33,237 nucleotides of DNA. Origin: a virus. The translations under genes and the position numbers were made by a program. How positions within the stretch are numbered: the first letter of the stretch is position 1; the number at the start of each line of letters is the position of its first letter. Below the pieces are notes generated by a model. It did not search any database and had not been told where the DNA came from. It was given only the letters and a program-made list of their open reading frames with translations. The stretch is taken from positions 1 to 33,237 of the IMG/VR virus record IMGVR_UViG_3300037264_004223. The stretch is one strand, 5' to 3'. Positions 150 through 25,042 of the stretch are shown here, piece after piece.

Positions 150-550
150 TGCCGGGACGACTAAAGCTCTTTGACGGAACTCAATTCGTTGAGATTACCA
201 CTACTTCTCAGAAGCAGACTAAAAGTTTCACCACGATTACTGTGGCTGGTACTGGGGGTTCCGGGCAATTCAACGAAGCTAGCTTCAATAACCGCTCTTG
301 GGTTAGGAAACTCACGGTTACTCCCACCGTCGGATCGGTAAACAGCTACGTCATTGAGTTCTTCCATGACGGCACCTTTACCGCGGACAAGTTGGAGTAC
401 AAGGCCACGGCCAGCGGCACCTTCATTGACAACGCGGGTTGGTTCCATGAGGACGAAGAGAGTTCCGATGAACTGCATTTGAGGATCACCAACAATTCGT
501 TGGCAAGTAGTACTTTCACAGTTGCGCTGGTGGCGGAGGTTTTCGCCTAA
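149..550 (+). CDS. Hypothetical protein, probable virion component
   Basis: This gene encodes 133 residues, rich in Thr, Ser, Val and Phe with an alternating polar/hydrophobic pattern, so an all-beta fold is likely. There is no signal peptide, membrane helix or recognisable catalytic motif. The start overlaps the preceding TAA, and its own stop overlaps the next ATG, so it is coupled on both sides. It lies directly before two paralogous proteins and the large repeat protein. A small tail, baseplate or head-decoration protein fits this setting. That is inferred from position and composition; no family was recognised. Confidence 0.65.
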   Translation: MPGRLKLFDGTQFVEITTTSQKQTKSFTTITVAGTGGSGQFNEASFNNRSWVRKLTVTPTVGSVNSYVIEFFHDGTFTADKLEYKATASGTFIDNAGWFHEDEESSDELHLRITNNSLASSTFTVALVAEVFA

Positions 551-1446
551 TGAGTTTCATCTATCAAAACCTTACAGTTTCTGGCTCCAGGGCTGATACA
601 GAAGGGGCTTCCAAGTTCATTACGGTGGCGCGCACTTTTCTAGAAGCGGCCGGCTGGCAGATGATTGACGACCGCACTGCCCAGGCCGGTAGCGCTACGC
701 CTTCCCTAACTCATAAACTGGTCTTTTCATCCCTAGGTGAGACAGGAAACCTTCCCACCTACTACATGACTATCTTTTCGGGAACCGGTGCAGCTGTAGC
801 CAGCAGCCTGGTTTCTTTCATGATGAGTACTGCCTACGACACGGTTGCCCACGATGTTCCTTCTAGCGGGGTATCTACTAACGTCAGCAATGCCCAGGAT
901 GTTCAGACTGTTCTAAATACCCCCTCGGAGGCTAACTTTGAAGTTTGGATGTCCGGGGATTCCCAAGGGGTAGTTTTTGTTACTCGTCAAGCCTCCACCT
1001 ATGACACCATCTGTGTAGGCAGAGCGAATTCTTTTTCTTCCGTAGCGCAAAATTCTTTCCCATTGTATATCAATGGGGCCAGTGGTAACGTTATTACAGT
1101 TACTAATACCTCGACCGTGCGGACTATAGGTGGGAATCCCCCTCAGTCTTTCAACGCGACGTCCGAGGCCTCGATCGGATTTACCAGCCTGGCCAGTACT
1201 AATCAGCCATACGACTTGGATGCGGCCACTTCTATTTTCCTAGCTGTCCCTCTTGCCTTACGCTACAGTGATGCCAATCCTGTCCGTAAGGGGGTGGCGG
1301 GCACATTGCGTAATGTATGGGCCACTGTTGGGACTGCCGCCGGGGCTTTTGCGGAAGGACGGCTTACTGCCTCGGGTACCTTTGGGGTTCAAACTTACCG
1401 AGTTTTCCCTAATGCTGCGGATGCTTTACTAATCAGAGAAACATAA
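550..1446 (+). CDS. Hypothetical virion-type protein, paralogue A of a tandem pair
   Basis: This 298-residue protein is clearly related to the gene just downstream (1459-2340). Both begin with MSF, then share a TEG-x-SK element near residue 20, a GW-x3-DDR-x-AQAG-x-A block near residues 36-50, a THK, an LGE-x-G, a STAYDT-x-AHDVP block in the middle, an NQP-Y element, a PVRKG motif near residue 250, and a C-terminal LLIR. The protein is beta-rich with no membrane helix or signal peptide. Its ATG overlaps the upstream TAA, so translation is probably coupled. Position between other structural genes suggests a tail or baseplate role, but I know no family for it. Confidence 0.75.
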   Translation: MSFIYQNLTVSGSRADTEGASKFITVARTFLEAAGWQMIDDRTAQAGSATPSLTHKLVFSSLGETGNLPTYYMTIFSGTGAAVASSLVSFMMSTAYDTVAHDVPSSGVSTNVSNAQDVQTVLNTPSEANFEVWMSGDSQGVVFVTRQASTYDTICVGRANSFSSVAQNSFPLYINGASGNVITVTNTSTVRTIGGNPPQSFNATSEASIGFTSLASTNQPYDLDAATSIFLAVPLALRYSDANPVRKGVAGTLRNVWATVGTAAGAFAEGRLTASGTFGVQTYRVFPNAADALLIRET

Positions 1447-1458
1447 GGAGATATTGCT

Positions 1459-2340
1459 ATGTCATTTGCTTACAGACAAGTTACTATTTCTGGTCATCGA
1501 ATCGGAACCGAAGGAACCTCCAAGGCCCTCAATGAGATCGTTGACGTAATGGTCAACCAGATGGGCTGGGTATTGAATGATGATCGCCGGGCCCAGGCTG
1601 GAAATGCCAGCATCATTACCACTCATAAGGTAGCCTTGCGTTCTAATTTGGGAGAATCCGGAGATCAGCCGCAGTGGCATGTGGTCCTTACCTCGGGAGT
1701 TGCCGCGGCTGTTCAGGATAACAGCATTGGGTGCCAGATTTCTACGGCTTACGATACGGCCGCCCACGATGTTCCGGGTACGGGAATTGAGACCCCCGCC
1801 GATCACACTAACCAAGCCTTGAACACTGATTCGGATGCCCAGTTCATCTTATGGATCTCTGGAAACAAGGATGGAGTTGTCCTAGTAACTCAAGAACAGG
1901 GCCAATTCAACTGGATGAGTTTCGGTAGAAGCCAGCATTTCCTGGCTAACAACCTAGAACCTTATGGTTTGTATCTGGTTTCGGGCAACGCGACCGCTAA
2001 CCCTAACGTTACTCAGGTTCCATCTATTGCCGGACAGCCCCCTCAGCAGTTTCTCGCCACGGAGGCGGGCTTTATAGACTATCCCCTGGCTACTACTAAC
2101 CAGCCCCAGTATAGTTTGGGAGAGACAGAGGCCATTTTTACTGCCTTTCCTCTTATCCATGTAGTAAACGATAGCGCCCCCGTTCGTAAGGGAGCGATTG
2201 GCATCTGCAATAATTTCTGGTCAGCAGTGAGCGACAATGCAGGCATCATTAGTCCCACTGAATTCGTGGTTTCTGGTACCGGCGAAAGATATATGGCATT
2301 CGGATCTACCACCGCCACCCTGCTTATTCGAAAGAGCTAA
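1459..2340 (+). CDS. Hypothetical virion-type protein, paralogue B of a tandem pair
   Basis: This 293-residue protein is the second copy of the tandem pair. It keeps the shared blocks in the same order: GW-x3-DDR-x-AQAG early, STAYDT-x-AHDVP in the middle, PVRKG near residue 250, and LLIR at the end. Overall similarity is moderate, so the duplication is old. Unlike its neighbour it has an independent, strong ribosome binding site (AAGGAG at 1445-1450, 8 bases before ATG), so it can be translated without coupling and perhaps at a different level. The function is unknown. A tail-associated role is inferred from its neighbours. Confidence 0.75.
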   Translation: MSFAYRQVTISGHRIGTEGTSKALNEIVDVMVNQMGWVLNDDRRAQAGNASIITTHKVALRSNLGESGDQPQWHVVLTSGVAAAVQDNSIGCQISTAYDTAAHDVPGTGIETPADHTNQALNTDSDAQFILWISGNKDGVVLVTQEQGQFNWMSFGRSQHFLANNLEPYGLYLVSGNATANPNVTQVPSIAGQPPQQFLATEAGFIDYPLATTNQPQYSLGETEAIFTAFPLIHVVNDSAPVRKGAIGICNNFWSAVSDNAGIISPTEFVVSGTGERYMAFGSTTATLLIRKS

Positions 2341-2960: not shown

Positions 2961-5900
2961 ATGACGTATAATCGGTTTCTTTACAACACCGCGCTATGGA
3001 ATGCCGGGCGTGAAGAAGCCGCAGGTATCGCTAGGTCTATCATCCAGGCCCACACAGGCCCCCACATTCAAGCTGTTGTTGGTAATGATGGGGGCACCAG
3101 TTTCATTTCAGACTTCGTCATTACCGAAGGCACGGTCGTCAAGCCTCCCACCCAGTTCAATTTCCCGGACTTGAGTGCGTGGATTCGTGCCTACCAAGTT
3201 GGCCCATCGTCCGAAGGCACCGCTGGCGGCTATGCCAAGGATGACCTTGCTTCTCTGATTAGAGCCCAGCAGTTCAAAGATCTGCCGGCCTGCATCTTCT
3301 TGGTGAACAATCTTCCCAACTTGCCGGCCCGCATCTTCGGTCTGTTGCAAGCCAACCTCATCGCCACCATCTTGGGTGAGCTGGGCATGCACGACTTGCC
3401 TGCTATCATTCAGGCGACGGTCGCGAATTTGCCAGCCAGGATGCTGGGTATCAATGCGCCCAATCTTCCTGGTTTCATCTTTGTCAATCCTCCGGGAAAC
3501 CTTGGGGCTCGTATTTGGTCACCGTTGGATTTGCGCGCTACTTTGTCCCCAGTGCAGTTCCAGGATCTACCAGCCAGCATTCGCGGTTTCCAGTTTTCCG
3601 ACTTGCCTGCCAGAATGTTGGGTATTGCCGCCCCCAACTTCATTGCATTCATTCGTGGTGTGGCCGCGGACATCAAAGACATGCCTGCCCGCATGTTGCC
3701 GTTGGTCTTTGACCCAGGACTACCTGCCACCATCAACCCAGTCTTTACGGGAGATACCGGCTTCGGGGTGGGCCTAACAGCCCAGGTTGCCGGTCACGGT
3801 GGCTTCCAAAGTCTCCAAGGTATTGTCAAGTCGATAACCAGCACTACAAGCAGTCTGAGTGCTGCTATTATTGCGGGAGGAGTAGTAGATCTTCCTGCCA
3901 TCATTGAACTTCTGGGTGCTGGCAATCTAATCGCTACCATCGGAACCATTCCTCTAAACGAGAGAGATAGGTTCCTCAACGCCTTCCTACACGCACTTAT
4001 CCCGGCGGATCTGGGCGCAACGATGACCATCAGTGAGAACGTGGCGTTCTTGGCTGCTACGATTTCGTCTCTACGACAAATAGATGATTTGTCAGCATTC
4101 ATTAGGGTGGCCGAAACTTTCGTTACTGCCATTCTCACTATTAGCACCTTGGCCTCTCGCGATCTACGTGCAACCATTGGTAATCCTAACTGCGAAGGTG
4201 GTTCGGCCAGCGTTCTACTCAGCGCAATTGCCACCGCCCAGCACAAGGGTGACATTAGCGCGTTCATTCAGTCTTTCGCCGAAAAGAATCTGATTGCCAC
4301 TATCAATACGACCGATACCTTCTTTGCCTACGATACCATTTCCATTACCTTCAGCCCCCGACCTCGGGCCACAGTTCCTCCAGGCACTCCGTTCAATACA
4401 ACGGATACTATCACGATCAACTTTGCTCCGTTCCGAGGTAAGAACCTCAGCGCGCTACTCAATGCTATTCAGAACAACGTTTACCTGGGCGCTACCATTA
4501 CAGCAGTGTTCCCGCTTCCGAAAGTTGTGCCGGCGGTCAATAGACTCACAGCTGCAGACCTACGCTTGGGCGAAGATCAGAACATCCAAGAGATCACCCT
4601 CCAGTTGGAAGGTGCCCTACTAGAGTACATTTATGTCAATGGTACCGATCAAGCCTTCATCAAGGACCCCAACGAGGATTGGAAGATCAATGTTCGTTCC
4701 TTCCGACCTATTGCTGCCGGCCTGTTTGGGGATCGCGCCGCTGGTAAGATCTGTCGCTTGGGCAATCTGGCCTCCTTCCACACCATGGACGAAGCTGTTC
4801 GTTCCTGCATTCAAGCCGTTCTTGGTTACACCGATGAGTCTAACATGGTCGCCTACATTCAAGCTAGAGGCTATATTAACGATTTCCCGGCCACCATCAG
4901 CATATCGGATGTCTTTGACGACTTGAATGCTTTTGCTGGGCGCGTGTTTCCTGTTGATCTCGGCGCGTTGGTGGGTGTGAAGAGTATCAGTAATCCCAAC
5001 TTGGGTGCGTACATCCGAACTACCTACACGGGCGTCATTGGTAACATGGGTGCCTTCATCGATCTGGTACGAGAGCTGACCCTGACAGGAACGATCAGCG
5101 GAGCTGGCGGCGCACCTTACCAACCGGGAGTGCTGAATGCCTATCTTCTCGGCGCAACCATCCCGTCTATTTACCAAACCTCTGCCCTCATGGCTTTTAT
5201 CGACCCCGGATCAAACACAGGCTCCTTCCTCTTCCCAGGCACTAGCGGGGGCATCATCAAGCCTCGCCTTACTGTGGGGTTGGGTTCGGACATCTTCTCC
5301 TTTGCTCTCTACCGACGCAAGTTCTCGATTTCCTTCTGGGTGCGTTGGGACAATACAGTTGGTAATCCAGCCACAGCTGATACCATCCTGGGCATGGCTA
5401 CTGATTTCACCAAAGCAGATGGGTTGGGTTTTGATTGGGTCGCAGCGACTGCATCGGATCCGCCCGCTATCCGCTTTTACGTAAACAACCAGTCTACTAC
5501 AACCGCCCAGGGTATCACCAGCGGAGATAGTACCCCCTTTACTACCGACCAGTGGGTCCATGTAGTTGGCACGTATGATGCTAATGCGGCCTCCAACAAC
5601 GTTCGTCTCTACATGAACGGAGTTCAGAAGGCCACCAAGACGCACACCATTGATCTGTCAGGGCTGAGCAACGCTCTGGAGATTGGCAGAATTAGTTCGG
5701 CGACCCCAGATGCCAACTACCCCACCCAGCACTTCGATGAGTTCGGACTCTGGTTAGGCGTGGCTTTGTCGGGAAGCGAAGTTACTGCTCTCTTTGATGA
5801 GGGCTTCACTCCTGCCCACGATCTCCGCTCTAATCGAGGAGCTTACACCCACGCTTCCGATTTGGCTACCTACTACCGCTTTGAAAATACTGCCACAACC

Positions 5901-6713
5901 TTCCCGACCGAAGTCAACGCAGTTACAGCGGGCGTGTTTGACGGAACCTATGCCGATTTGGCAGTAACCGATGCGTCTGACTATACCCCTTCGGACGATG
6001 CGGCCGCCATGGACTTCAACAGCAGCACTCGCTTTGACGCGACAGGTACCGACTTACCACTCCTGGTCAACACCTCGGGTAGTTTCAGCGTAATGGCCTG
6101 GGCCAACAAGAATACAACCACTGCTTTGAAGTACCTGGCTGGCAGCTGGCACTCCAGCGACACTACTGGAATTATTCCCACCATGCGCATTAGTACCTCC
6201 AGCTCTAACCGCTGGACTTTAGAAATGAACACTCAGGGCAATAGCCCTACTACCATTACTGATTCGACTCAAACAGTCGTCAACAATGGTACCAGATGGT
6301 ATCAGGTAGTTACTACCTACGATGTCAGCAATCGATCTATGCGACTTTATGTGGATGGTACATTGGTATCTTCCGGCACTTTGTCCGCTAGCAGTAAACG
6401 CATCAACGAATTTACTATTGGCGCAGCGCGCACCAGCAATAGCCCCGGCGCATCACCTTGGGATGGATTCATAGATACTGTAGCAGTCTGGGATACCAAT
6501 CTCAGTACCACGGATGTGTCAACAATGTACAATGGCGGCACTGCTGAAACTGATTTGCGCACCTTGAATACAGTGGCCAATCTGCAGGTTTGGTACCGAT
6601 TAGGTGAGGCAGGGGATACCCTGACCGAAATCGTCGATCGCTCTGGGCATAATCGTGATTTGCCAAGAACTAACTCTGGAAATTCCATCGTGGATGAAAC
6701 TCCGTTCCTATAG
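2961..6713 (+). CDS. Large adhesin/tail-fibre-like protein with short tandem repeats and two LamG-like domains
   Basis: This 1250-residue protein has three parts. Residues about 70-746 carry roughly 35 copies of a motif [DN]-[LF]-x-A-x-[IM], often written DLPAxI or NLPARM. Between residues 95 and 253 these recur every 10-14 residues, mostly 12, which suggests a solenoid or beta-helical stalk; later copies are more widely spaced. Residues about 755-970 and 1010-1220 look like two LamG (concanavalin A-like) jelly rolls: each has an F-S-[IV]-x-x-W strand near its start, then W-[VY]-[HQ]-V-V-x-T-Y-D, and R-L-Y-[MV]-[ND]-G. Such domains bind glycans. The start has AGGAG at 2946-2950. A host-binding fibre or spike is likely, but virion location is inferred from context. 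Confidence 0.8.
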   Translation: MTYNRFLYNTALWNAGREEAAGIARSIIQAHTGPHIQAVVGNDGGTSFISDFVITEGTVVKPPTQFNFPDLSAWIRAYQVGPSSEGTAGGYAKDDLASLIRAQQFKDLPACIFLVNNLPNLPARIFGLLQANLIATILGELGMHDLPAIIQATVANLPARMLGINAPNLPGFIFVNPPGNLGARIWSPLDLRATLSPVQFQDLPASIRGFQFSDLPARMLGIAAPNFIAFIRGVAADIKDMPARMLPLVFDPGLPATINPVFTGDTGFGVGLTAQVAGHGGFQSLQGIVKSITSTTSSLSAAIIAGGVVDLPAIIELLGAGNLIATIGTIPLNERDRFLNAFLHALIPADLGATMTISENVAFLAATISSLRQIDDLSAFIRVAETFVTAILTISTLASRDLRATIGNPNCEGGSASVLLSAIATAQHKGDISAFIQSFAEKNLIATINTTDTFFAYDTISITFSPRPRATVPPGTPFNTTDTITINFAPFRGKNLSALLNAIQNNVYLGATITAVFPLPKVVPAVNRLTAADLRLGEDQNIQEITLQLEGALLEYIYVNGTDQAFIKDPNEDWKINVRSFRPIAAGLFGDRAAGKICRLGNLASFHTMDEAVRSCIQAVLGYTDESNMVAYIQARGYINDFPATISISDVFDDLNAFAGRVFPVDLGALVGVKSISNPNLGAYIRTTYTGVIGNMGAFIDLVRELTLTGTISGAGGAPYQPGVLNAYLLGATIPSIYQTSALMAFIDPGSNTGSFLFPGTSGGIIKPRLTVGLGSDIFSFALYRRKFSISFWVRWDNTVGNPATADTILGMATDFTKADGLGFDWVAATASDPPAIRFYVNNQSTTTAQGITSGDSTPFTTDQWVHVVGTYDANAASNNVRLYMNGVQKATKTHTIDLSGLSNALEIGRISSATPDANYPTQHFDEFGLWLGVALSGSEVTALFDEGFTPAHDLRSNRGAYTHASDLATYYRFENTATTFPTEVNAVTAGVFDGTYADLAVTDASDYTPSDDAAAMDFNSSTRFDATGTDLPLLVNTSGSFSVMAWANKNTTTALKYLAGSWHSSDTTGIIPTMRISTSSSNRWTLEMNTQGNSPTTITDSTQTVVNNGTRWYQVVTTYDVSNRSMRLYVDGTLVSSGTLSASSKRINEFTIGAARTSNSPGASPWDGFIDTVAVWDTNLSTTDVSTMYNGGTAETDLRTLNTVANLQVWYRLGEAGDTLTEIVDRSGHNRDLPRTNSGNSIVDETPFL
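3243..3734 (+). repeat. Coding region for about fourteen tandem ~12-residue units
   Basis: Within the 1250-residue protein, residues 95, 107, 120, 132, 145, 156, 168, 180, 190, 202, 214, 226, 240 and 253 each begin a unit of the form [DN]-L-P-A-x-[IM]. The spacing is 12, 13, 12, 13, 11, 12, 12, 10, 12, 12, 12, 14 and 13 residues. The repeat is clear at protein level but diverged at DNA level, so it is old and kept by selection on the protein. Confidence 0.8.
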
Positions 6714-6793: not shown

Positions 6794-7945
6794 ATGAAAT
6801 TCAGTATTCTTGCCAAAGATCTGAAGCGGGCTCTCGCTACATGCAATGAGATTGCTCCCGCAAGTTCTGCCATTGCAGAAGAGAAGACTGGTGTGCTTGT
6901 TCGCACCCAGAAGGATAGCGTAGTTTTTATGGCGTCGGACGACACGTCCTACGTTAGCGTTAGTGTTCCTGCTCAAGTGAAGGAGCAGGGTGAGGCTCTG
7001 GTACGTTGTGGGTCTGTGACCAGTTCCGTCTCCGCCACCTTTGAAGAGGACAATAACGATGTCCAGGTGGAGAAGACGGACAAGGGCACCCTCAAGGTTT
7101 CCGGGCTGAGTACGGTACGCCACACCCGAAACTTCCCGCTGCTCAACGCGGGGTTCTTTGTAGAGACCCCCAAGTTTGAGAGCGACAAGGCCACTCAAAT
7201 CAAGGCCTTGGACTTCCAGGATGGTATTCTTGCGGTAGCCCACGCGGCTTCCCGAGATACCTCCAAGTTGCACTTCAACTGCATCGCCACCACCTTCGCT
7301 GATAGCGAAGTTGTTTTCGCCGCTACTGACGGCATCCAAATCGCTGAATTCCGCAAAGCCGCGCAGATCCCCAAGAAGGGACTACGCGGCTCTTTTATTT
7401 TGGGCCTAAAATTCGCGAGCGTCGTTAGCAAGCATGTGGCGGACATCCTTCGTGAGGGTGAAGGTGTAGATGTAGTCGGGATCTACGTGTCGGGAGACAA
7501 CTTCTTTCTACGCAGCGGAGAGACCATACTCGTTGGTACCCTGCTCAACACCAAGTTCCCGGAGTATGCGCCCTACCTTCAGACCCAGGGCAAGCTCCTG
7601 GCCATCTTCCCGCGTGAGGCTTTCCTCAAGACCCTATCGGGTCTTCAGCCCACCGTTGATGCCAAGAGCCATCGCATGGTCCTTGATGCTCGACAGAAGG
7701 AAGGCGAATGCGTGCTGTCCAACTCCAGTATCACTGGGGAAGGTGTCAGCTCCGAACTCAACGTTAAGACTCCGGAAGACTTTACCTTCCACTTCGACTC
7801 CATGCTGCTCCAGAACTCGGTTCGACAGCTGAAGGGTGAGGATTTTGAGCTTTACTTCGTGGCTAACGCCCCGCATGTGGTACTCAAGTCCCCGAAGAAT
7901 GACGACTTCAAGGCCCTGGTGTGTACGCTCAAGCCGGTTAGTTAA
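6794..7945 (+). CDS. dnaN: DNA polymerase III beta-type sliding clamp
   Basis: This 383-residue protein matches bacterial beta clamps in length and in landmark segments. It begins MKF-x-I with a following amphipathic helix. The middle has ATDGIQIAEFRKA, corresponding to the ATDGHRLA segment of DnaN, and then a T-K-FPEY segment corresponding to the FPDY element. It ends with a short C-terminal strand (LKPVS), as beta clamps do. Beta clamps are rings that encircle DNA and tether polymerases and other enzymes. It is the first gene after a good promoter and has a clear ribosome binding site. No clamp-loader subunit is visible in the window, so the phage may use the host loader or encode one elsewhere. 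Confidence 0.9.
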   Translation: MKFSILAKDLKRALATCNEIAPASSAIAEEKTGVLVRTQKDSVVFMASDDTSYVSVSVPAQVKEQGEALVRCGSVTSSVSATFEEDNNDVQVEKTDKGTLKVSGLSTVRHTRNFPLLNAGFFVETPKFESDKATQIKALDFQDGILAVAHAASRDTSKLHFNCIATTFADSEVVFAATDGIQIAEFRKAAQIPKKGLRGSFILGLKFASVVSKHVADILREGEGVDVVGIYVSGDNFFLRSGETILVGTLLNTKFPEYAPYLQTQGKLLAIFPREAFLKTLSGLQPTVDAKSHRMVLDARQKEGECVLSNSSITGEGVSSELNVKTPEDFTFHFDSMLLQNSVRQLKGEDFELYFVANAPHVVLKSPKNDDFKALVCTLKPVS

Positions 7946-8511: not shown

Positions 8512-9571
8512 GAAGGAATACGGCCCGCTAATCAAATGGTTGGGAGAAGCCGCTGACGCAACACCGGAAGTTATTTCCACCGGTTGTATTGGCCTCGACC
8601 AAGCTGTAGGTAGAGGTGGTTTAGAGCGCGGTCTTATTGCAGAGTTTTTCGGCCCGGAAGCCAGTGGTAAAAGCTTCTTGGCTTATTCCGTTATCAAGCA
8701 GGCCTGTGTCTCGGGGCACAAGTGCGCAATCATTGACGCAGAGCATACGATTGATCCCCGACTGCTGGAGAAGATCGGTTTGCCGCGGGACAAGGTCCTT
8801 GTGGTGGACGGAGCCCCTACAGGAGAACAGAACCTATCCATCGCACAGAAGTTGATGGAGACGGGCGAGTTTGCGGTGGTACTGATTGATAGCGTCGCTG
8901 CCCTTCTCCCGGATGCCCGAGCTGACGCGGACTTCGATCAGCAGTTCATGGGACTACACGCTCGACTCATGAGCGCAGGTCTCCAGAAGCTGGCCCCGGT
9001 AGTCAAGAAGACCAACACCCTGTTGATCTTCGTCAACCAGATCCGCTTCAAGATTGGTGCGTATGGCAATCCGGAGACCACGACGGGTGGAAACGCCCTG
9101 TTGTTCTATGCGGGGTATCGCATCCACGTCAGTGGCGGAAAGTCCAAGTCCAGCCGTTTGGCCGATAAGGGAACGGGTGAGATCTATGGACACCGAACCC
9201 ACTTCATGGTGGAAAAGAACAAGCGATCAGCACCTTTTCGTACTGCCGAGGTTGACTTAATCTACGGAATGGGTTATGATACAATAGGGGAGATTGTAGA
9301 CATCGGTATTGACGTAGGATTGATTGAACAAGGGGGAGCGTGGCTCACCTACAAAGATCATAAGTGGCAAGGCAAGGATAAGGCCAAGCTTTCACTTCAA
9401 GGCGATACCACCCTGAGGAACGATCTGGAAAATCAAATCCGTTCAATCATTTCAGGTGGCGCTTTTCAGATTGCCCCCGTAGAAATCCCCGAGGAACTTG
9501 AAGAGGTCGTAGATAATGACAAGCCTGCTCGCAAAAAGCGTGTTGCAAACACTGAAGCAAGCGTTTCCTAA
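8465..9571 (+). CDS. recA: RecA recombinase
   Basis: This 368-residue protein has the RecA core. Walker A (GPEASGKS) is at residues 63-70. IDAEHTIDP at about 90-98 contains the catalytic Glu (E93, matching E96 of E. coli). Walker B (VVLIDSVAAL) is near 138-147. The DNA-binding loop L2 region FVNQIRFKIG...GNPETTTGGNAL spans about 189-212, almost as in bacterial RecA. It polymerises on single-stranded DNA and drives strand exchange, serving recombination-dependent replication and repair. GGAGGG a few bases before ATG supports this start despite the overlap with the upstream gene. It is closer to cellular RecA than to T4 UvsX. Confidence 0.93.
   Translation: MTKETGNLKVVQNAIEKEYGPLIKWLGEAADATPEVISTGCIGLDQAVGRGGLERGLIAEFFGPEASGKSFLAYSVIKQACVSGHKCAIIDAEHTIDPRLLEKIGLPRDKVLVVDGAPTGEQNLSIAQKLMETGEFAVVLIDSVAALLPDARADADFDQQFMGLHARLMSAGLQKLAPVVKKTNTLLIFVNQIRFKIGAYGNPETTTGGNALLFYAGYRIHVSGGKSKSSRLADKGTGEIYGHRTHFMVEKNKRSAPFRTAEVDLIYGMGYDTIGEIVDIGIDVGLIEQGGAWLTYKDHKWQGKDKAKLSLQGDTTLRNDLENQIRSIISGGAFQIAPVEIPEELEEVVDNDKPARKKRVANTEASVS
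9252..9280 (+). promoter_or_regulatory. Possible internal promoter inside recA
   Basis: TTGACT (9252-9257), a 17-base spacer and TATGAT (9275-9280) lie inside the recA coding region. The fit to sigma70 is as good as the two intergenic promoters, but the bases also encode conserved-looking protein, so this may be chance. If active it would drive the nuclease and helicase genes downstream. Confidence 0.3.
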
Positions 9572-9872
9572 TACACGCATCAACGACGAATACTATGTCA
9601 ACTACAATGGGCAGAAGCTATTCTTCGATTTCCATCTTCCTAACTTGAACATAGTGGTTGAGGTTCAAGGGGTGCAACATACTGAATTCAATCCTCACTT
9701 TCACGGCACCGCAGAGACTTTCAAGGCTCAAAAGTACCGAGATCGATTGAAGACGGAATGGTGCCACATCAACGACATGTCGTTGGTATGTATCAACCAC
9801 ACCGAGGTTCCCATAGAAGTACCCGATCTTCTTCGCAAGATCGAGGAGGCCCAGAATCTTGATGGACGATAG
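9516..9872 (+). CDS. Small PD-(D/E)XK endonuclease, Vsr/resolvase-like
   Basis: This 118-residue protein has the compact core of the PD-(D/E)XK superfamily: strand FFDFHLP with Asp38, then NIVVEVQGVQH with Glu49 and Gln51 in the E-x-[KQ] position, followed by an amphipathic helix with QKYRDRLK and a strand ending SLVCI. The VEVQG-x-QH form is typical of Vsr-like and small phage nucleases. The start overlaps recA by 56 bases and follows an AGAGGT-like ribosome binding site. Directly after RecA, a role in processing recombination intermediates or nicking DNA is plausible. The exact substrate cannot be read from sequence. Confidence 0.7.
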   Translation: MTSLLAKSVLQTLKQAFPNTRINDEYYVNYNGQKLFFDFHLPNLNIVVEVQGVQHTEFNPHFHGTAETFKAQKYRDRLKTEWCHINDMSLVCINHTEVPIEVPDLLRKIEEAQNLDGR

Positions 9873-17108: not shown

Positions 17109-17331
17109 GGAATTAGGCTGGCCCTTCATTGGGATTCAGCTAAAGGATGGAAGTAAGCATTTCGGAAAGGTGACGAAGTTTTCACCACATACGATTTACT
17201 TTAGGGACAGGCACGGGGACGAATTGGATGTCCCCCGCCGTATCATAGAGCGAGCACTACTCGCAATTGACGGAGGAAAGAAAGATGGCGGACCAACCGC
17301 AATTCGTAAAGCGCATCAACCCGCGCGGTGA
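17068..17331 (+). CDS. Small Sm/Hfq-like barrel protein
   Basis: This gene encodes 87 residues from ATG 17068 (AGGAGG at 17050-17055); GTG 17041 is an alternative start. The core, residues about 20-58, reads IGIQLKDGSKHFGKVTKFS, then TIYFRDRHGDELDVP and IIERALLA. This matches the Sm1 pattern (hydrophobic, x, L, x, D-G, x3, x, G, x, V) and the following strands of Sm/LSm or Hfq-type small barrels, which bind RNA. The Hfq signature around its second motif is not present, so this is fold-level similarity. The C-terminal tail is basic and disordered. It overlaps the nuclease gene upstream and the glycosyltransferase downstream. Confidence 0.6.
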   Translation: MSTSHLAKTKAQLEELGWPFIGIQLKDGSKHFGKVTKFSPHTIYFRDRHGDELDVPRRIIERALLAIDGGKKDGGPTAIRKAHQPAR

Positions 17332-18619
17332 TGCACAGCAGAAGAAGGCACGGGTGATTTTCTACGGAGACTCTCCTACTTGTGCTACTGGATTTGGACA
17401 GGTGTCCCGGAATATTCTACCGGCCCTGCACAACTCTGGCAAGTATGAGGTCGATATTCTGGGTATCAATTACTGGGGGGATCCTCACGAGTATCCCTTC
17501 AAGATTTGGCCCATGGCTGTCAATGGCCAACGTGATCCGTATGGGCGGCAGCGCTTGCAGCAGCACTTGATGGATCCTCGGTTGGAGTTTGACATCCTAT
17601 TCTTCCTGCAAGATACCTTCATTCTTGACTTTATGCCGGGAATGTTGGCTAATCTGCTCAAGGCGGGTAAGCGCTTCAAGAGCGTTTACTACTATCCGAT
17701 CGATGGTATTCCGAAGAAAAGCTGGATTGAATCGGCGGCAGCTGTGGATTACCCGGTTACTTACAGCCAATTCGGATTCGACCAGTCCTCAATTATTCGA
17801 CCAGAATTGAAGGATAGACTTCGAGTGATTCCCCACGGTGTCAATCCGAAGGTCTTCTTCCCGGCTCCGCCGGCACAGGTGAAGGAATTCCGTAGCCAGT
17901 TCTTTGGTGTTTTGGCTGACAAGTTCATCGTTACTAACGTCAACCGAAACCAACAGCGCAAGGATATTCCTGCAACAATCAGGGCTTTCAAAGAATTCCG
18001 AGAACATCGTCCGGATTCTATCTTATACTTACATATGATGGCCCATGATCAGGGGTGGAACCTACCGGAAGTGATCCAGGCATTCGGCCTAGACATTACC
18101 AAGGATGTCATTTTGCCGCAGAACTTTACTGCTTCGACGGGATTCCCCCTGGAAATTCTCAACCTCATTTACAACGCAAGTGATTGTGTGGTTAGCACCA
18201 CCGTTGGTGAAGGTTGGGGTCTTTCCTGGACGGAAGCAATGGCAACCAAAACCCCGATTGTGTTTCCGCAGAACACGGTTCTGTCGGAGTACATTACCGA
18301 CGAGACTGGTTATCCCTATCCCAGCGGCGGCGATGCGGACCATATCACAATTCTGCCGCACGACAATGAAGTACCTCGCCCCACTGCCCACATTGGCCAA
18401 ATGGTAGAGCAGATGGTCAAGCTTTACGACAATCGTGAAGAAGGCGTTCGTCGCGCGCAGAATGCATACAACATGGTTCACAGCACTCTACTTTGGGAAG
18501 ATCATATCAACCCGCAATGGGTTCAGTTGTTCGATTCCATTATGGAAGGTCGCGGTCTGCCCGCTGCCCCCACAGCTGGGGATGCAGCCAAGCAGGTCCT
18601 CAAGGGAGATTTGATCTAA
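17285..18619 (+). CDS. Glycosyltransferase family 4 (GT-B fold), first of the cassette
   Basis: This gene encodes 444 residues from ATG 17285, with GGAGG at 17272-17276. The N-terminal Rossmann-like half has IFYGDSPTCATGFGQVSRN, a typical acceptor-side entry of GT4 enzymes. The C-terminal donor half has RVIPHGVNPKVFFP, NVNRNQQRKDI and TTVGEGWGLSWTEAMA, where E-x7-E contacts the nucleotide sugar. It would transfer a sugar from an activated donor with retention, and works in the cytoplasm; no signal peptide or membrane helix is seen. It opens the cassette and is coupled by TAATG to the next GT4. Donor and acceptor are unknown. Confidence 0.87.
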   Translation: MADQPQFVKRINPRGDAQQKKARVIFYGDSPTCATGFGQVSRNILPALHNSGKYEVDILGINYWGDPHEYPFKIWPMAVNGQRDPYGRQRLQQHLMDPRLEFDILFFLQDTFILDFMPGMLANLLKAGKRFKSVYYYPIDGIPKKSWIESAAAVDYPVTYSQFGFDQSSIIRPELKDRLRVIPHGVNPKVFFPAPPAQVKEFRSQFFGVLADKFIVTNVNRNQQRKDIPATIRAFKEFREHRPDSILYLHMMAHDQGWNLPEVIQAFGLDITKDVILPQNFTASTGFPLEILNLIYNASDCVVSTTVGEGWGLSWTEAMATKTPIVFPQNTVLSEYITDETGYPYPSGGDADHITILPHDNEVPRPTAHIGQMVEQMVKLYDNREEGVRRAQNAYNMVHSTLLWEDHINPQWVQLFDSIMEGRGLPAAPTAGDAAKQVLKGDLI

Positions 18620-19752
18620 TGGCAGGAGTCAAATACATCGGGCCCGTCTTTGACGGTAGTGGCTACGCTGAAGCGGCTAGGAACTATGTTCTTTCGATCT
18701 ATCGAAAGGGCTACCCGATTCAGTTGGCTCCTATCACCTTTGAAAAGACCCGCCCAGATTTGGGCGAAGAGGGAGAGATCCTACGGAGTTTGGTGAACAA
18801 CAATGTCAATTATGACAAGGTGATCGTTCACTCGACTCCGGATCTCTGGCACCACTGGACTCGCTTCGAGCACGGGAAGTACATCATTGGCTATACGGTG
18901 TGGGAAACCAGCAAGCTTCCTTCTATCTGGACGGAGGCTTGTAATAGGGTCGGGGAAGTCTGGGTGCCTTGCGACTGGAACATGCAAGTATTCAAGGATT
19001 CCGGTGTGACCGTACCCATGCATAAGATCCCGCACGCCATTGATATTCCGGACCTCAGTACGGTTCCGGATTTCAATCTGGAGGGCATTGGTTCCAATGA
19101 CTTCGTCTTCTACTCCATCTTCCAGTGGCAGGAACGCAAGAATCCTTATGGATTGCTTTCCGCCTATACCGCTGCCTTTTCTGGCAGGGACGATGTGGTA
19201 CTGGTGCTAAAGACCTATCGAAACGACCATGGTGGGGATAGAGATCAGATCATCAAATTGATCAAGGATTTTCGACAATTCATGAATCTTGACCACTATC
19301 CCAAGATGTTCTTGGTGGTAGAAAACATGAGCAGCGAGGGCATCATGGCCCTGCATAAGCGCGGTGATTGCTTTGTCCTTCTCCAGCGCTCCGAGGGCTG
19401 GGGCCTTCCTCACTTTGAAGCCGCTGCTTGTGGTAAGCCGGTAATAACGCCGTCGTATGGCGGGCAAGCAGACTTCTTGAAAGAAGACAACAGCTACCCT
19501 GTGGATTACACATTGACTCCGGTGGGAGGAATGACGTGGTCGCCTTACTATCGAGGGGACCAGTACTGGTGTGAACCAGATCTCAAGGGCGCGATAGAAG
19601 CCATGCGCCACGTGTATGACCACAGAGAAGAAGCCAAAGAAAAAGGGCAACGCGCCCGTCAATTCGTGGGTGACAATTTCACCTGGGATAAGATTGGAGA
19701 CATGGTTGTGGAGAGATTGACCCAGCTAGACCAAGGGGGCACCAATGGCTAA
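18619..19752 (+). CDS. Glycosyltransferase family 4, second of the cassette
   Basis: This gene encodes 377 residues from the ATG overlapping the previous stop. The N-terminus has YIGPVFDGSGYAEAARNY, and GYTVWETSKLP near residue 93 is common in GT4 proteins of surface-glycan loci. The donor half has FYSIFQWQERKNP and LLQRSEGWGLPHFEAAACGKPVI. The protein is only distantly like its neighbour, so the two probably add different sugars or linkages. It is soluble with no membrane segment. It overlaps the following GT2 by 8 bases, continuing the coupled chain. Confidence 0.87.
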   Translation: MAGVKYIGPVFDGSGYAEAARNYVLSIYRKGYPIQLAPITFEKTRPDLGEEGEILRSLVNNNVNYDKVIVHSTPDLWHHWTRFEHGKYIIGYTVWETSKLPSIWTEACNRVGEVWVPCDWNMQVFKDSGVTVPMHKIPHAIDIPDLSTVPDFNLEGIGSNDFVFYSIFQWQERKNPYGLLSAYTAAFSGRDDVVLVLKTYRNDHGGDRDQIIKLIKDFRQFMNLDHYPKMFLVVENMSSEGIMALHKRGDCFVLLQRSEGWGLPHFEAAACGKPVITPSYGGQADFLKEDNSYPVDYTLTPVGGMTWSPYYRGDQYWCEPDLKGAIEAMRHVYDHREEAKEKGQRARQFVGDNFTWDKIGDMVVERLTQLDQGGTNG

Positions 19753-20467
19753 ACCCAGCATCGGCCTCGCTATGATTATGCAGAACGAAGAGTTGCACAT
19801 TCCGGCTGCCATTGCGCAGTTCTACCATTTGGTAGACGATATTGTGGTGATAGACGGGGGCTCTACGGATAAGAGTGTCGAGTGGGCAGAGCGCATGGGT
19901 GCTCGCGTAATTCGTCGCCCCTTCGACAAGGACTTTTCCGCCCAGAAGAACTTCGCCATCGCAACCTTATCTACGGATTGGGTCTATCTACATGATCCCG
20001 ACGAGAGATTAGAGCCCACCTTACTTGAAGTTCTCCCGTTGTTGACCACTATGGAAGGTCAACAGTTTTTGATGCGTGCGGACATCATTCCGCCCAACGA
20101 GCAGTTCTTTGACTGCTTTGGCATCCCTCGGAAAAACTTCATTGACGGGGTGCAAACTGCAACGTACCCTGACTATCAGTACCGACTGTTCCTGAAGTAT
20201 TGCCGTTTCGAAGGGGCGGTTCATGAGAAGATTGTGAACTTTGAGAATCGAACCGAGCTGGATTACCAGCGTCCTCACCAGGCCAAGCCTGAGGAAAAGC
20301 TAGCCGGCAGCAGTAGCGCTGTAGAAACCGAGCGTGGCATCGTCGAAACCGGCGTTAATCCTTTTGATCCGGGGAATATCTCTAGGTTCAACATTCTGCA
20401 CTATAAGAGCAGCACCAAGCAAGAACAGCAAGATGAATTGTATCGTGACATAAGAGGAGAAGTCTAA
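19745..20467 (+). CDS. Glycosyltransferase family 2 (WaaE-like)
   Basis: This 240-residue protein has the GT-A nucleotide-binding start IGLAMIMQNEE, then VVIDGGSTDKS near residue 36, FSAQKNFAI, and the metal-binding D-x-D element HDPDERLEP at about 82-90. The pattern matches small inverting GT2 enzymes related to LPS glucosyltransferases such as WaaE. The C-terminal third has ILHYKSSTKQEQQDEL, a feature echoed in the two GT2-like proteins later in the cassette. It is soluble, without membrane helices. It is coupled to the 4,6-dehydratase-like gene by TAATG. Confidence 0.85.
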   Translation: MAKPSIGLAMIMQNEELHIPAAIAQFYHLVDDIVVIDGGSTDKSVEWAERMGARVIRRPFDKDFSAQKNFAIATLSTDWVYLHDPDERLEPTLLEVLPLLTTMEGQQFLMRADIIPPNEQFFDCFGIPRKNFIDGVQTATYPDYQYRLFLKYCRFEGAVHEKIVNFENRTELDYQRPHQAKPEEKLAGSSSAVETERGIVETGVNPFDPGNISRFNILHYKSSTKQEQQDELYRDIRGEV

Positions 20468-21429
20468 TGAACATGAAGAATGTTTTGGTAACGGGGGCCA
20501 ACGGATTTGTTGGCGCTGCCCTTTGTGAGCGTCTACTCAAAATGAACAAGACCGTGGTGGGCTTAGTCCGTGACCGAAATTACAAATCCAGGCGCGACAT
20601 CCTGGACAATATCTCTGTAGTCTATGGTGATTTGCGAGACTACGATACTGTCCGGTATGCAGTGTCTAAGTATGAGATTGATACCATTTTCCATGTGGGC
20701 GCTATTACCATCTTGAAGATGGCCACGGCGGATCCCAAGACGTGTTACCAAACCAACATCATGGGCACGGTAAACGTAATGGAAGCGGCCCGCGAATGTG
20801 GCCACGTTTCCAAGATAGTGGTAGCTTCCTCGGACAAGGCGTATGGCAATCATGACGTCCTTCCTTACAAGGAAGACTATTGTCTGTTGGCCAGCGACCC
20901 GTACAGCACCTCCAAGTCCTGCACGGATCTGATTGCCCAGTCCTATGCCTACACCTATGACATGGATGTTTCAGTGGTCCGCTCGGGCAACATCTTTGGT
21001 CCCGGCGATCTCAACAAGTCCCGTATTATCCCTGGAGGCATTCTACGAATCCTCGATGGGATACGCCCTGTAATCTACAAAGGCGTAGGCAATTACAAGC
21101 GCGAGTTCATGTACATCAACGATGTCGTGGACGCATACATGTTTGTGCAGGATCGTGGGTTGAAGGGCGAAGCCTACAACATTGGCGGTTCTGGTTTCAT
21201 GAACATTTTCGATACGGTGAAGATCATCATTGACGAGATGGGCGTAGACATTGAACCCCAGATTGTGGAGAAGGACTTCATCGAGATCAAAGAGCAGTAC
21301 TTGGATTGTGCCAAGTTGGAGGGATTAGGATGGAAGTGCAATTTCCCGCTCCGGGAAGGCATCCGAGCCTGTATCCCTTGGTATAAGGAATATCACAAGA
21401 ACCCGACTGCTTTCTATTGGGCGCACTAG
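20467..21429 (+). CDS. NAD-dependent nucleotide-sugar 4,6-dehydratase/epimerase (extended SDR)
   Basis: This 320-residue protein has the NAD-binding GANGFVG motif near residue 10, the catalytic Ser/Asp region VVASSDKAYGN near 117, and the catalytic pair YSTSK near 141-145. SSDKAYG resembles the TSDK element of CDP-glucose 4,6-dehydratases. Extended SDRs oxidise C4 of a nucleotide hexose; dehydratases then remove C6-OH to give a 4-keto-6-deoxy sugar. The next two genes encode the enzymes that would act on such a product. A ribosome binding site (GAGGAG) is close upstream. Whether it is a dehydratase or a 4-epimerase cannot be fixed from sequence alone. Confidence 0.85.
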   Translation: MNMKNVLVTGANGFVGAALCERLLKMNKTVVGLVRDRNYKSRRDILDNISVVYGDLRDYDTVRYAVSKYEIDTIFHVGAITILKMATADPKTCYQTNIMGTVNVMEAARECGHVSKIVVASSDKAYGNHDVLPYKEDYCLLASDPYSTSKSCTDLIAQSYAYTYDMDVSVVRSGNIFGPGDLNKSRIIPGGILRILDGIRPVIYKGVGNYKREFMYINDVVDAYMFVQDRGLKGEAYNIGGSGFMNIFDTVKIIIDEMGVDIEPQIVEKDFIEIKEQYLDCAKLEGLGWKCNFPLREGIRACIPWYKEYHKNPTAFYWAH

Positions 21430-21443
21430 GAGAAGGAATCACC

Positions 21444-22529
21444 ATGCAAATCCCCATTTACAAGCCACAGCTGGCTCCCTACGAAGTAGTTGAGCCTGAG
21501 ATTCGAGCGATGTACGAGTCTGGGATGCTCTATCCCGGGCCCTACACTGATCGCCTAATCCAGGCCATCAAAGAGTTTTGCGATGTGAACTTCTGTCTGC
21601 CGGTATCCAGTTGTTCCCTGGGGCTGCTATTCATGTTGAGCAGCTGCCCCAAGGGCTCTAAAGTCATCATGCCGTCCTTTACCTTCAATGCAACTCTCCA
21701 GGCGCTTGAGTGGAATGATTTGGTGCCGGTAGTAGTTGATGTGGACGACAACGGGCAGATGGATTACGTATCCGCCAGCGATGCGATATCCCGTCATCCC
21801 AATGTGTCTGCCATTCTAGGTGTTCATATGTGGGGTAACCTACTAAACACCTTTGAATTCAACAAGTTAGCCGCAGATAGCGGTGTCAAGATGTTCTATG
21901 ACGGGGCGCACGTTCTAGGCAGCTTTGATGACGAGTCCGTCTCTCCTGGCACGGCTACCTGTTTTAGCATTGCTGCTACCAAGCCGGTATCTGCCGGGGA
22001 AGGTGGGCTAATTGTCACTAACGACGAGGAGTTCTACCTGTTCTTGCAAGACGTATCGACCCATGGCCTTTATGGTAGTTTGGATACCAAGGTCAAGGGA
22101 ATGAATGGCAAGATTCAGGAGTTCAACTCCATCCTAGCTTACCATGCCTTGCAGCGATTCGATGAAACTCGTGCCCGCCGAGCCCAGATCATTGCCTTCT
22201 ATCGAGATAGCTTTGATGATCTTCCTCTGCGTGTGTGGGAGACGCGGGAGGGCGTTGGGCCTGTGTCCTACAAGGATTGCGTGGTTTTTGCCCGTACTAA
22301 GCTCGAACGAAATCAGCTAGACGCATTCGTACAGAGCAGAGGAATTGGAACCAAGCGATACTTTGAGCCGGCCATCCCAGACATGGGTTCGTTCAATGGC
22401 ATTGTGCATAGCGCAGAGAACGCACGTGTCTTGGCTGCTACCTGCCTCACTCTTCCCCTTTACCCCGCTTTGACAGACGAAGAGGTGGAATACATTGTCC
22501 GAACAGTCCGCGAATTCTACGGCGCGTAG
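21444..22529 (+). CDS. DegT/DnrJ/EryC1/StrS-family sugar aminotransferase
   Basis: This gene encodes 361 residues from ATG 21444, preceded by AGGAGAAGG (21428-21436). The PLP-binding Lys is in FSIAATKPVSAGEGGLIVT, corresponding to the ATK-x-x-x-x-GEGG motif of the family, and the cofactor Asp in FYDGAHVLG. The substrate-site segment MPSFTFNATLQAL is also typical. These enzymes move an amino group from glutamate onto a keto carbon of a nucleotide sugar, often C4 of a 4-keto-6-deoxy hexose. Its place between the dehydratase-like and acetyltransferase genes fits that step. Position specificity (C3 or C4) is inferred. Confidence 0.88.
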   Translation: MQIPIYKPQLAPYEVVEPEIRAMYESGMLYPGPYTDRLIQAIKEFCDVNFCLPVSSCSLGLLFMLSSCPKGSKVIMPSFTFNATLQALEWNDLVPVVVDVDDNGQMDYVSASDAISRHPNVSAILGVHMWGNLLNTFEFNKLAADSGVKMFYDGAHVLGSFDDESVSPGTATCFSIAATKPVSAGEGGLIVTNDEEFYLFLQDVSTHGLYGSLDTKVKGMNGKIQEFNSILAYHALQRFDETRARRAQIIAFYRDSFDDLPLRVWETREGVGPVSYKDCVVFARTKLERNQLDAFVQSRGIGTKRYFEPAIPDMGSFNGIVHSAENARVLAATCLTLPLYPALTDEEVEYIVRTVREFYGA

Positions 22530-23172
22530 AGACGAGTACCTGAACATCGTTTCAGGACGCGGGTACTTCATCTATGGCGCAGGTGGTCACGCCCGGGTCG
22601 TGGAGGATTTCTTTCCTTCCGAAACTCTATTGGCGTGCGTATCGGATGATTGGGCCTCCCACTCGATGGCTCCCTGGAAAGACATGGTTTTTGGTCCGGA
22701 TGAAATTCCTGACCAATCGCGGGTGATTGTGGCCATAGGGGATAACTTCGCGCGGGAGAGAGTCACGAAGTACTTGCTAAACACGGGGAAAAGTCTTATA
22801 TTTCCCAACGTGATGCACTCTTCTGCCCAGATCTCTGGACGTGCGGGAGTTGGACGGGGTGCAATGCATTGTGCCAATTCGGTAGTGATCGCGGGAACCA
22901 TGGTAGGGGACTTTGTGATCATCAATACTGGCGCAACGGTGGATCACGATTGCTATCTAGGAGATTTCGTACATATTGCCCCAGGTGTCAATCTGTGTGG
23001 CAATGTCAAGGTTGGAGATCGTACCATTATTGGGGTGGGGAGCTGTGCTCGTCCCAAGATAAGTATCGGAAGTGATACCGTGATTGGTGCCGGCTCCGTG
23101 ATTATCAGCGACATACCTTCCGGCGTGGTTGCATACGGCAACCCGTGCAAAATCATCAAGGAGATTTCGTAA
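22495..23172 (+). CDS. NeuD/PglD-type sugar acetyltransferase
   Basis: This 225-residue protein has an N-terminal nucleotide-sugar-binding segment (YFIYGAGGHARVVEDFF) and a left-handed beta-helix of hexapeptide repeats from about residue 120 to 215 (DHDCYLGDFVHIAPGV, then IGSDTVIGAGSVI). His at TVDHD is the likely catalytic base, as in PglD. It would acetylate the amino sugar made by the preceding enzyme using acetyl-CoA. No ATG precedes the core; the TTG at 22495 has GAGGTGG six bases upstream and is the best start, with a 35-base overlap. O-acetylation is the alternative activity. Confidence 0.85.
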   Translation: MSEQSANSTARRDEYLNIVSGRGYFIYGAGGHARVVEDFFPSETLLACVSDDWASHSMAPWKDMVFGPDEIPDQSRVIVAIGDNFARERVTKYLLNTGKSLIFPNVMHSSAQISGRAGVGRGAMHCANSVVIAGTMVGDFVIINTGATVDHDCYLGDFVHIAPGVNLCGNVKVGDRTIIGVGSCARPKISIGSDTVIGAGSVIISDIPSGVVAYGNPCKIIKEIS

Positions 23173-24086
23173 TGAAGCTTGCGTGGACTTTGCTCTGTCG
23201 AGGACGAACCGACGAGTTCATCTACTCTATCCGAACCCATGCGCCGTTTGTGGATCGTAGTATCATCATTCTGCATGGAGACGATGTAGAGAACAAGGAC
23301 AACAATGAATTTTTGGCTTCTCCCGAGTGCCAGAAGTGGGACTTGGATGTAGTCCGTACCAATATTCCCTATGATCCCAAGGCGTTACGAGACCTGTACA
23401 TGGAACGTCTTGATGACTACATGACCAGTGTTGGGGAACAAGTTTGGTTTCTGATTACCGATTCAGACGAGTACCTGGAGCTACCGGCTCTGTACTCTTT
23501 GCGCTTCATTGCTGGGGAAGCTGAGAAGGCGGATGCGAACATTGTGGGCTTCAACTCCCATGATATTCAGACAACCCCCGATGGTCAGGTTCACGAGAAC
23601 AAATCTGGCTACTGGAACCCCAACTTCAACAAGCACTACGTGGGAATGCGTTATACTCCGGGCACGCACATCGGCATCGCCCGTCCGCAACAGCCTCGTA
23701 TGGCTCAATCTCCGCTACGATACTTCCACGTCAAGACCGTAGGAAGTCAGTGGCTTCGAGGTTGCCGAAACTATTGGACCACCGCCGAGGTAGCCCAGAA
23801 TACAACCAATGATCCGGTCTGGCAGCAATTCAAATCCCTGTGTGCTCAGCACGGATTTGCTACTTTTGACCAGATTGCTGAGGCTATGTATAACGGTACA
23901 ATGCCTGAGGAACTTACGCAGTGGTTCGTGTTCAATAGGAACAGTGAGAACTCCGAGGCCCGGTCCTGGTTCGTTACTTACTACGTCCTATTACACCCCG
24001 ATATGAACTATGGTTGTGCAGGCAATCGAGACTTCACATACGAGCGAAATCGCAAGCCGTGCGCCCGCGACAGCATCACCTTCTAG
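23172..24086 (+). CDS. Glycosyltransferase family 2-like protein
   Basis: This gene encodes 304 residues from the ATG overlapping the acetyltransferase stop. The N-terminal half has a GT-A-like layout: WTLLCRGRTDEF, SIIILHGDD, and a D-x-D element in LITDSDEYLEL. The C-terminal half shares YFHVKTVGS and RGCRNYW with YYHIKSTKD and NACRNYF in the next gene, so the two are paralogues. The classical DGGSTD element is replaced by ILHGDDVEN, so it is a divergent member. No membrane helix is present. Donor and acceptor are unknown. Confidence 0.75.
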   Translation: MKLAWTLLCRGRTDEFIYSIRTHAPFVDRSIIILHGDDVENKDNNEFLASPECQKWDLDVVRTNIPYDPKALRDLYMERLDDYMTSVGEQVWFLITDSDEYLELPALYSLRFIAGEAEKADANIVGFNSHDIQTTPDGQVHENKSGYWNPNFNKHYVGMRYTPGTHIGIARPQQPRMAQSPLRYFHVKTVGSQWLRGCRNYWTTAEVAQNTTNDPVWQQFKSLCAQHGFATFDQIAEAMYNGTMPEELTQWFVFNRNSENSEARSWFVTYYVLLHPDMNYGCAGNRDFTYERNRKPCARDSITF

Positions 24087-24097
24087 GAGACTAATCA

Positions 24098-25042
24098 ATG
24101 GCATCCTTTGACTTCAGTCAGTTTCGTAACAGTGCAGTGCTGACTAATCCCGCGCCAGTTCAACAGGCAGAGGAGCTACCGTCCAGCGAACGCTGGGATG
24201 ATGACTCGATCACCTATGTTACGGTTACACAGGATCGAATCTTCAACAACAAGCGCAACTTTCCGGTCGTTCTTCCTTACGTGGATCGGGCTGTAGTTGT
24301 GGATGGTTTCAGCAAGGATGGTTCCGCTGACTATCTTCGTTCCCTGGGTCCCAAGGTTCAGGTTTTCCAGCGCGAATGGGATGATAGTTTTGCCAATCAA
24401 TACAACGAATACCTGCGACACCTCAAGGGTGGGTGGGTACTGTTGATGGATGATGACGAATTACCGTCAGAGAGCATGCTCCGCACCCTGCGTGATATCG
24501 TCAAGCATTCCGAAAAGGGCACCAAGTTTGATACGGTGGAGTATCGTTCCAATGACATCACCTACCACGAGGGAGACTGGGCTAATCGCGTAGACAACGG
24601 TCCCTGTGAGTACTACCGACAGGTGTTCTACAAGTGGAATCCAAACCTACGCTACTCTGTCCATCTGCACCAGGCTTTGGTTGGCCTGCGCGGGCCCGTG
24701 GCACGTACCAAAGAGCACTATTACCATATCAAGAGTACCAAAGACGAATTGCGCAACGCTTGCCGCAACTACTTCATCTCGGGAGAATGGCCTTCGCACC
24801 CAGTTGAGGAAGGTATCAAGACCCCGGAATGGTCTGAGTTGAAGCAACTTCTCTCCGAGAAGCATCCGGAAGTCAAGGTCTTCAGCCATCTGAATGGACT
24901 CTTGGTTTCCAAGCAGGTTGCCCCGGAAGTCGTACAATGGGCGTTCAAGTATCGTACTCACAATCAGGGCGTCGAAGGCGAGTCCGCGGGTGAACTTCGG
25001 GCGTATGCCCGGTATATGGACATGTTAGGCTACACGAGCTAA
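24098..25042 (+). CDS. Glycosyltransferase family 2
   Basis: This 314-residue protein has about 35 leading residues with low complexity, then a GT-A domain: ITYVTVTQDR, AVVVDGFSKDGSADYL (the DG-x-S-x-DG-S element) near residue 68, and the metal-binding LLMDDDELPSE near 113-123. It shares the YYHIKS...CRNYF region with the preceding gene and, more weakly, with the GT2 at 19745-20467. AGGAGA precedes the start. It ends on the ATG of the next SDR gene. As the fifth transferase it suggests a glycan of several sugars. Substrates are unknown. Confidence 0.82.
   Translation: MASFDFSQFRNSAVLTNPAPVQQAEELPSSERWDDDSITYVTVTQDRIFNNKRNFPVVLPYVDRAVVVDGFSKDGSADYLRSLGPKVQVFQREWDDSFANQYNEYLRHLKGGWVLLMDDDELPSESMLRTLRDIVKHSEKGTKFDTVEYRSNDITYHEGDWANRVDNGPCEYYRQVFYKWNPNLRYSVHLHQALVGLRGPVARTKEHYYHIKSTKDELRNACRNYFISGEWPSHPVEEGIKTPEWSELKQLLSEKHPEVKVFSHLNGLLVSKQVAPEVVQWAFKYRTHNQGVEGESAGELRAYARYMDMLGYTS

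Follow-up and report, generated by a model that had tools for sequence, protein, structure and literature searches.

The window analysed here is the whole of a 33 kb virus record (IMGVR_UViG_3300037264_004223; 33,237 nucleotides). It carries on its plus strand, at positions 2961–6713, an open reading frame (ORF) of 1250 residues whose translation contains a short motif recurring about every 12 residues. Is this pattern a genuine repeat, what fold might it adopt, and what would such a protein do for the virus?

Repeat units and their conservation

A sequence-only reading of the window had counted about 35 repeats between nucleotides 3168 and 5198, corresponding to residues 70–746 of the ORF, spaced near 12 residues at first and more widely later. 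The strict core [DN][LMFI]xAx[IM] occurs 22 times in residues 1–800, whereas 2000 shuffles average 0.30 and never exceed 4; loosened to A/G and I/M/L/V, it occurs 26 times in the same residues. Without the D/N requirement, about 41 cores are found (shuffle mean 8.4, maximum 19), so the count of 35 stands under a loose definition only. The spacing was read correctly: from residue 107 the successive gaps are 13, 12, 13, 11, 12, 12, 10, 12, 12, 12, 14 and 13, then wider, giving a dense array with a period of about 12 residues (gaps 10–14) up to residue 254–260 and wider spacing to about residue 746. Residues 60–760 hold 29 units with 13 gaps of 11–13, whereas shuffles give a mean of 0.03 such gaps and random placement of 29 units gives a mean of 2.2 and a maximum of 9.

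A search with a profile of the 12-residue unit, which that reading had proposed as a check, was also run. The profile (73 segments, two of them from the window's own ORF) matches the 1250-residue ORF alone in the six-frame translation of the window (E 5e-46). Tandem repetition of the unit was not detected in the gene at the DNA level, and the pattern is therefore maintained at the protein level rather than by recent duplication.

A DNA pattern for three units exactly 12 residues apart was found in nine viral contigs, and all nine matches were true repeat ORFs with 10–33 units each. Run as a negative control on 257 Gb of prokaryote contigs, this pattern returned only 12 low-complexity or chance ORFs. 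Further scans brought the set to 32 non-redundant repeat ORFs, some of them truncated where the contig stops; being biased to strict units, the scans miss looser family members. The 259 units with exact spacing give the consensus D-L-[PGS]-A-[YSIF]-[IL]-x-[GA]-[IVWFH]-x-x-[KR], with the last positions only weakly defined. Identity between homologues is 0.54–1.0 at positions 2, 4 and 6 and 0.12–0.69 at positions 3 and 5, an alternation such as a strand buried on one side would show. The dN/dS ratios are 0.11–0.23 in the pairs compared outside a recombined block (two of the pairs have dS near 2, which makes their values rough) and show that the unit is conserved under purifying selection. Short cores do arise by chance in low-complexity ORFs, but the shuffles, the independent relatives and the selection at core positions all argue against a chance or low-complexity pattern, an explanation that we consider refuted.

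The recombined block comes from one pair of relatives, L021 and L022, which are 98% identical over 9.9 kb and, within this overlap, diverge strongly only inside the repeat gene. In the divergent stretch, nucleotide identity falls to 55–78% and dS is 1.44, compared with 0.14 elsewhere; so high a dS indicates imported DNA rather than rapid substitution. The block in this one pair fits an exchange of host-recognition segments but does not prove it.

Sequence searches of Pfam, PHROGs, NCBIfam and the PDB revealed no relative of the repeat part, which bears out the earlier remark that no named family with this repeat was known. In the PDB, no significant match was obtained with the protein, two alignments or the unit profile as query, and a tblastn search of 50,697 cultured-phage records gave no match for the repeat protein. 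A literature search of partial coverage returned neither the unit peptides nor any description of a repeat of such kind. Repeat-bearing phage fibres are a known kind of protein; the 12-residue unit and the lineage carrying it appear undescribed in the sources searched, of which the literature was covered in part.

Architecture of the protein and its homologues

The N-terminus (residues 1–62, YNRFLYNTALWNAGR...SIIQAHTGPHIQAVVG; 2961–3146, plus strand, as for all parts of the gene) is kept across one of two clades of homologues and is likely the virion-attachment region. The dense array, defined by counts, profile and shuffles, covers residues 70–260 (3168–3740), with the 10–14 residue gaps from residue 107. 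Core counts and profile comparison place the wider-spaced array at residues 299–515 (3855–4505), which includes two DTIxIxF segments. A non-repeat module follows at residues 521–640 (QEITLQLEGALLEYIYVNGTD...TMDEAVRSCIQAVLG; 4521–4880), recognized by profile comparison and by blastp in loci found through the neighbouring sliding clamp gene, and the last array units, seen in core counts and with the repeat profile, occupy residues 628–746 (4842–5198). Two LamG domains (LamG_3, PF13385) lie at residues 785–941 (5313–5783; 60 bits) and 1033–1187 (6057–6521; 70.9 bits); both exceed the curated cut-off of 27.6 bits, and they are the only two such matches.

The array had been thought to join two LamG-like heads. 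This does not hold, as both domains are in tandem at the C-terminal side of the array, which therefore does not lie between them, and many relatives have no LamG at all. LamG is present in L003, L004, L015, L159 and L169 and absent from the complete genes of L160, L163, L166, L168, L170, L172 and L177. The array and the module are thus the constant part of the protein, and LamG is an optional end. The two C-terminal domains resemble LamG/Concanavalin A-like proteins, from which the protein differs in that LamG is only an optional tail, while the array and module belong to no Pfam family.

The 32 ORFs fall into two clades that share the array and the non-repeat module. Clade 1 (the window, L003, L004, L013, L015, L017, L020–L022, L147 and others) has the N-terminus described above, and clade 2 (L006–L012, L014, L018 and L019) has a different one. 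Profile comparison of the clades gives E 1.2e-43 over residues 68–636, and the aligned region includes the module around YIYVNGTD...TMDEAVR. The clade 2 counterparts of the DTIxIxF segments are DK(L/F) segments.

Fold of the array

The unit profile and the alternation of positions 2, 4 and 6 with 3 and 5 support the earlier suggestion of a beta-structured array, and each unit likely forms one beta-strand and a turn. In such a strand, L2, A4 and I6 would face a tight core, and positions 3, 5 and 7 would point outward. AlphaFold models of residues 1–770 (nine sequences, pLDDT 28.3) and of a clade 2 homologue (eight sequences, pLDDT 29.4) both have a pLDDT below 30 and are therefore not used for fold claims; failure with eight or nine sequences does not discriminate between folds. 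In the clade 2 model, the cores all form strands, which positions 9–12 for the most part do not; this lends the one-strand unit weak support. Foldseek with this model against BFVD gave nothing at E<=0.001, which is unsurprising for a model of so low confidence.

Several known repeats share features with the unit. Pentapeptide repeats consist of tandem A[DN]LXX every five residues, and hexapeptide left-handed beta-helices place aliphatic residues at i and i+6. Both resemble the present array in being beta repeats with [DN]L near a small residue. However, tandem pentapeptide pairs number zero in 18216 array residues and there is no Pfam match; for the hexapeptide repeat, the aliphatic fraction is 0.97 at position 2 vs 0.15 at position 8, and 1.00 at position 6 vs 0.14 at position 12. 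RTX (GGxGxD) and collagen ((Gxx)n) repeats are not found in the arrays.

Two sub-models of a fibre are weighed here. In a monomeric beta-solenoid, the fold suggested by the earlier reading, each unit would make up either a whole coil or one side of a larger one. Coils of 12 residues occur in the beetle antifreeze protein TmAFP, a beta-helix with the repeat TCTxSxNCxxAx and disulphides (PMC8038014), and the strand-turn periodicity of the present arrays is regular; the likeness to TmAFP ends with the 12-residue period, as the arrays have no TCT and 0.5% Cys. Further, no super-period of 24 or 36 residues is found between units (a 48-residue signal is weak and comes from few non-independent runs), gaps from 10 to more than 50 residues are frequent, and AF2, which is often able to model solenoids, failed, though with only eight or nine sequences. 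A monomeric solenoid is possible on these grounds, if rather doubtful.

The other sub-model is an intertwined oligomeric beta-fibre, in which each chain would contribute one short strand per unit around a common axis, as in triple beta-helices or the Orsay virus CP-delta beta-bracelet. The bracelet is built of phi-x-phi-x-phi strands with the consensus (V/L)xVxV that point towards a shared core, and it has E/D/N in the loop, an 8-residue period, three-residue loops and a Val core (PMC7565637). Short strands of this type recur here as L-x-A-x-I after D/N (L2/A4/I6 in 259 units, a generic feature), together with an acidic or Asn loop residue, predicted segments joined by loops of differing length and the probable setting of a virion fibre. 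The strict A/G at the mid-position suits a tight axis, variable loop lengths would be tolerated, and failure of monomer modelling would be expected. Against this, the period is 12, the mid-position is A/G rather than Val, gaps range from 10 to more than 50 in place of three-residue loops, the virus is unrelated, and the likeness may go no further than that between any two amphipathic strands; PDB sequence searches gave no link to the Orsay fibre. The intertwined oligomer is a serious candidate, somewhat short of an even chance, and at least as likely as the monomeric solenoid. More tentatively still, and with the balance against it, the unit could represent a viral fibre fold not seen before, in which the chains of an oligomeric beta-shaft intertwine around a core lined with Ala/Gly; a large lineage of uncultured phages would use this shaft as its standard fibre for adsorption.

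Gene neighbourhood and probable role

The repeat gene is followed by a replication cassette, the first gene of which encodes a sliding clamp (6794–7945, plus strand; Pfam DNA_pol3_beta, phrog_947, synteny). Where at least 2 kb of downstream sequence is available, 24 of 25 repeat loci have clamp/RecA/DnaB-type cassette genes there; the exceptions to the usual arrangement are L046, which has no cassette downstream, and L015, in which the cassette is inverted. This inverted cassette (L015 4457–7809) is unlike all other loci and may be a misassembly or a rearrangement. Conversely, 25 loci were located through the clamp, several of them on contigs that the repeat had also picked out. All 22 of these with at least 600 bases upstream have the repeat gene, or else its LamG end, just ahead of the clamp. 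In L156, L157 and L165, the contig breaks off within the gene, and only the LamG end precedes the clamp. L167 retains the repeat gene, with an inserted ORF (4278–4868; possibly an HNH-type endonuclease by eye) between it and the clamp. Contigs with this locus reach 296–298 kb. Also, a small gene with a phrog 'homing endonuclease' match (window 9516–9872) sits between RecA and DnaB in 15/15 cluster loci and hence looks more like a constant component of the cassette than a mobile element. Elsewhere in the window, a sugar-metabolism cluster (17267–25932) contains two related glycosyltransferases, an aminotransferase and nucleotide-sugar epimerase-type genes in related pairs.

The upstream part of the window is short, with only four uncharacterised genes; two adjacent ones (window 550–2340; 298 and 293 residues) have no family match, fall in one sequence cluster and are probably paralogues. 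In relatives of 115–120 kb, all from clade 2, a long upstream block contains a tape-measure homologue followed by large proteins that bear LamG, F5/F8 C, DUF2341 and BclA_C/C1q domains, and the repeat gene ends this tail/adhesin block. The block includes a 2378-residue protein with BclA_C/C1q-like and LamG domains (L035 8057–15190) and, unexpectedly among tail genes, an adjacent pair resembling by eye the halves of a thiamine-diphosphate decarboxylase (L041 14003–15003, L037 6715–7814). In siphovirus tail adhesion devices, the genes for adhesion come after the one for the tape measure (PMC7291167). The same order is seen here, and a sheath protein was not found in the two large relatives; the difference is that no Dit/Tal or known receptor-binding family is recognisable in the genes scanned.

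The repeat protein is probably a tail-fibre or tail-tip adhesin of a tailed phage with the repeat array as its shaft, and a fibre or adhesin role, as read earlier, fits the gene neighbourhood. The unit profile, the strand-like alternation and the dN/dS values point to this, as do the single strand per unit even in a low-confidence model, the tape measure homologue and adhesin-domain proteins upstream in the large relatives, the C-terminal LamG fusion in the window and some relatives, and the confinement of the L021/L022 divergence to the repeat gene. Weighing against it are the low pLDDT of both models, the scarcity of family matches among upstream proteins (most have none) and the array core without LamG in many relatives, with receptor binding putative. 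That the gene closes the structural block on its 3' side and adjoins replication genes would also suit a tail protein that is internal or ejected and repetitive by happenstance, but the LamG fusion and the adhesin-rich neighbours make this unlikely. As a fibre or adhesin, the protein would be anchored to the virion by its N-terminus and carry an elongated, probably oligomeric shaft, and LamG, or neighbouring LamG/F5-F8/DUF2341 proteins, are predicted to contact the cell surface; the sugar binding proposed earlier is a putative property of the LamG domains. Variable spacing and block recombination may let the array change while the core is retained.

The repeat family is kept beside the replication cassette in nearly every lineage member found, on contigs of up to ~298 kb, and the repeat protein has no relative in the cultured-phage collection searched. 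The protein is a marker of this large-phage lineage. It is a probable host-recognition protein, and its array offers a small, expressible target for discovering new fibre architecture.
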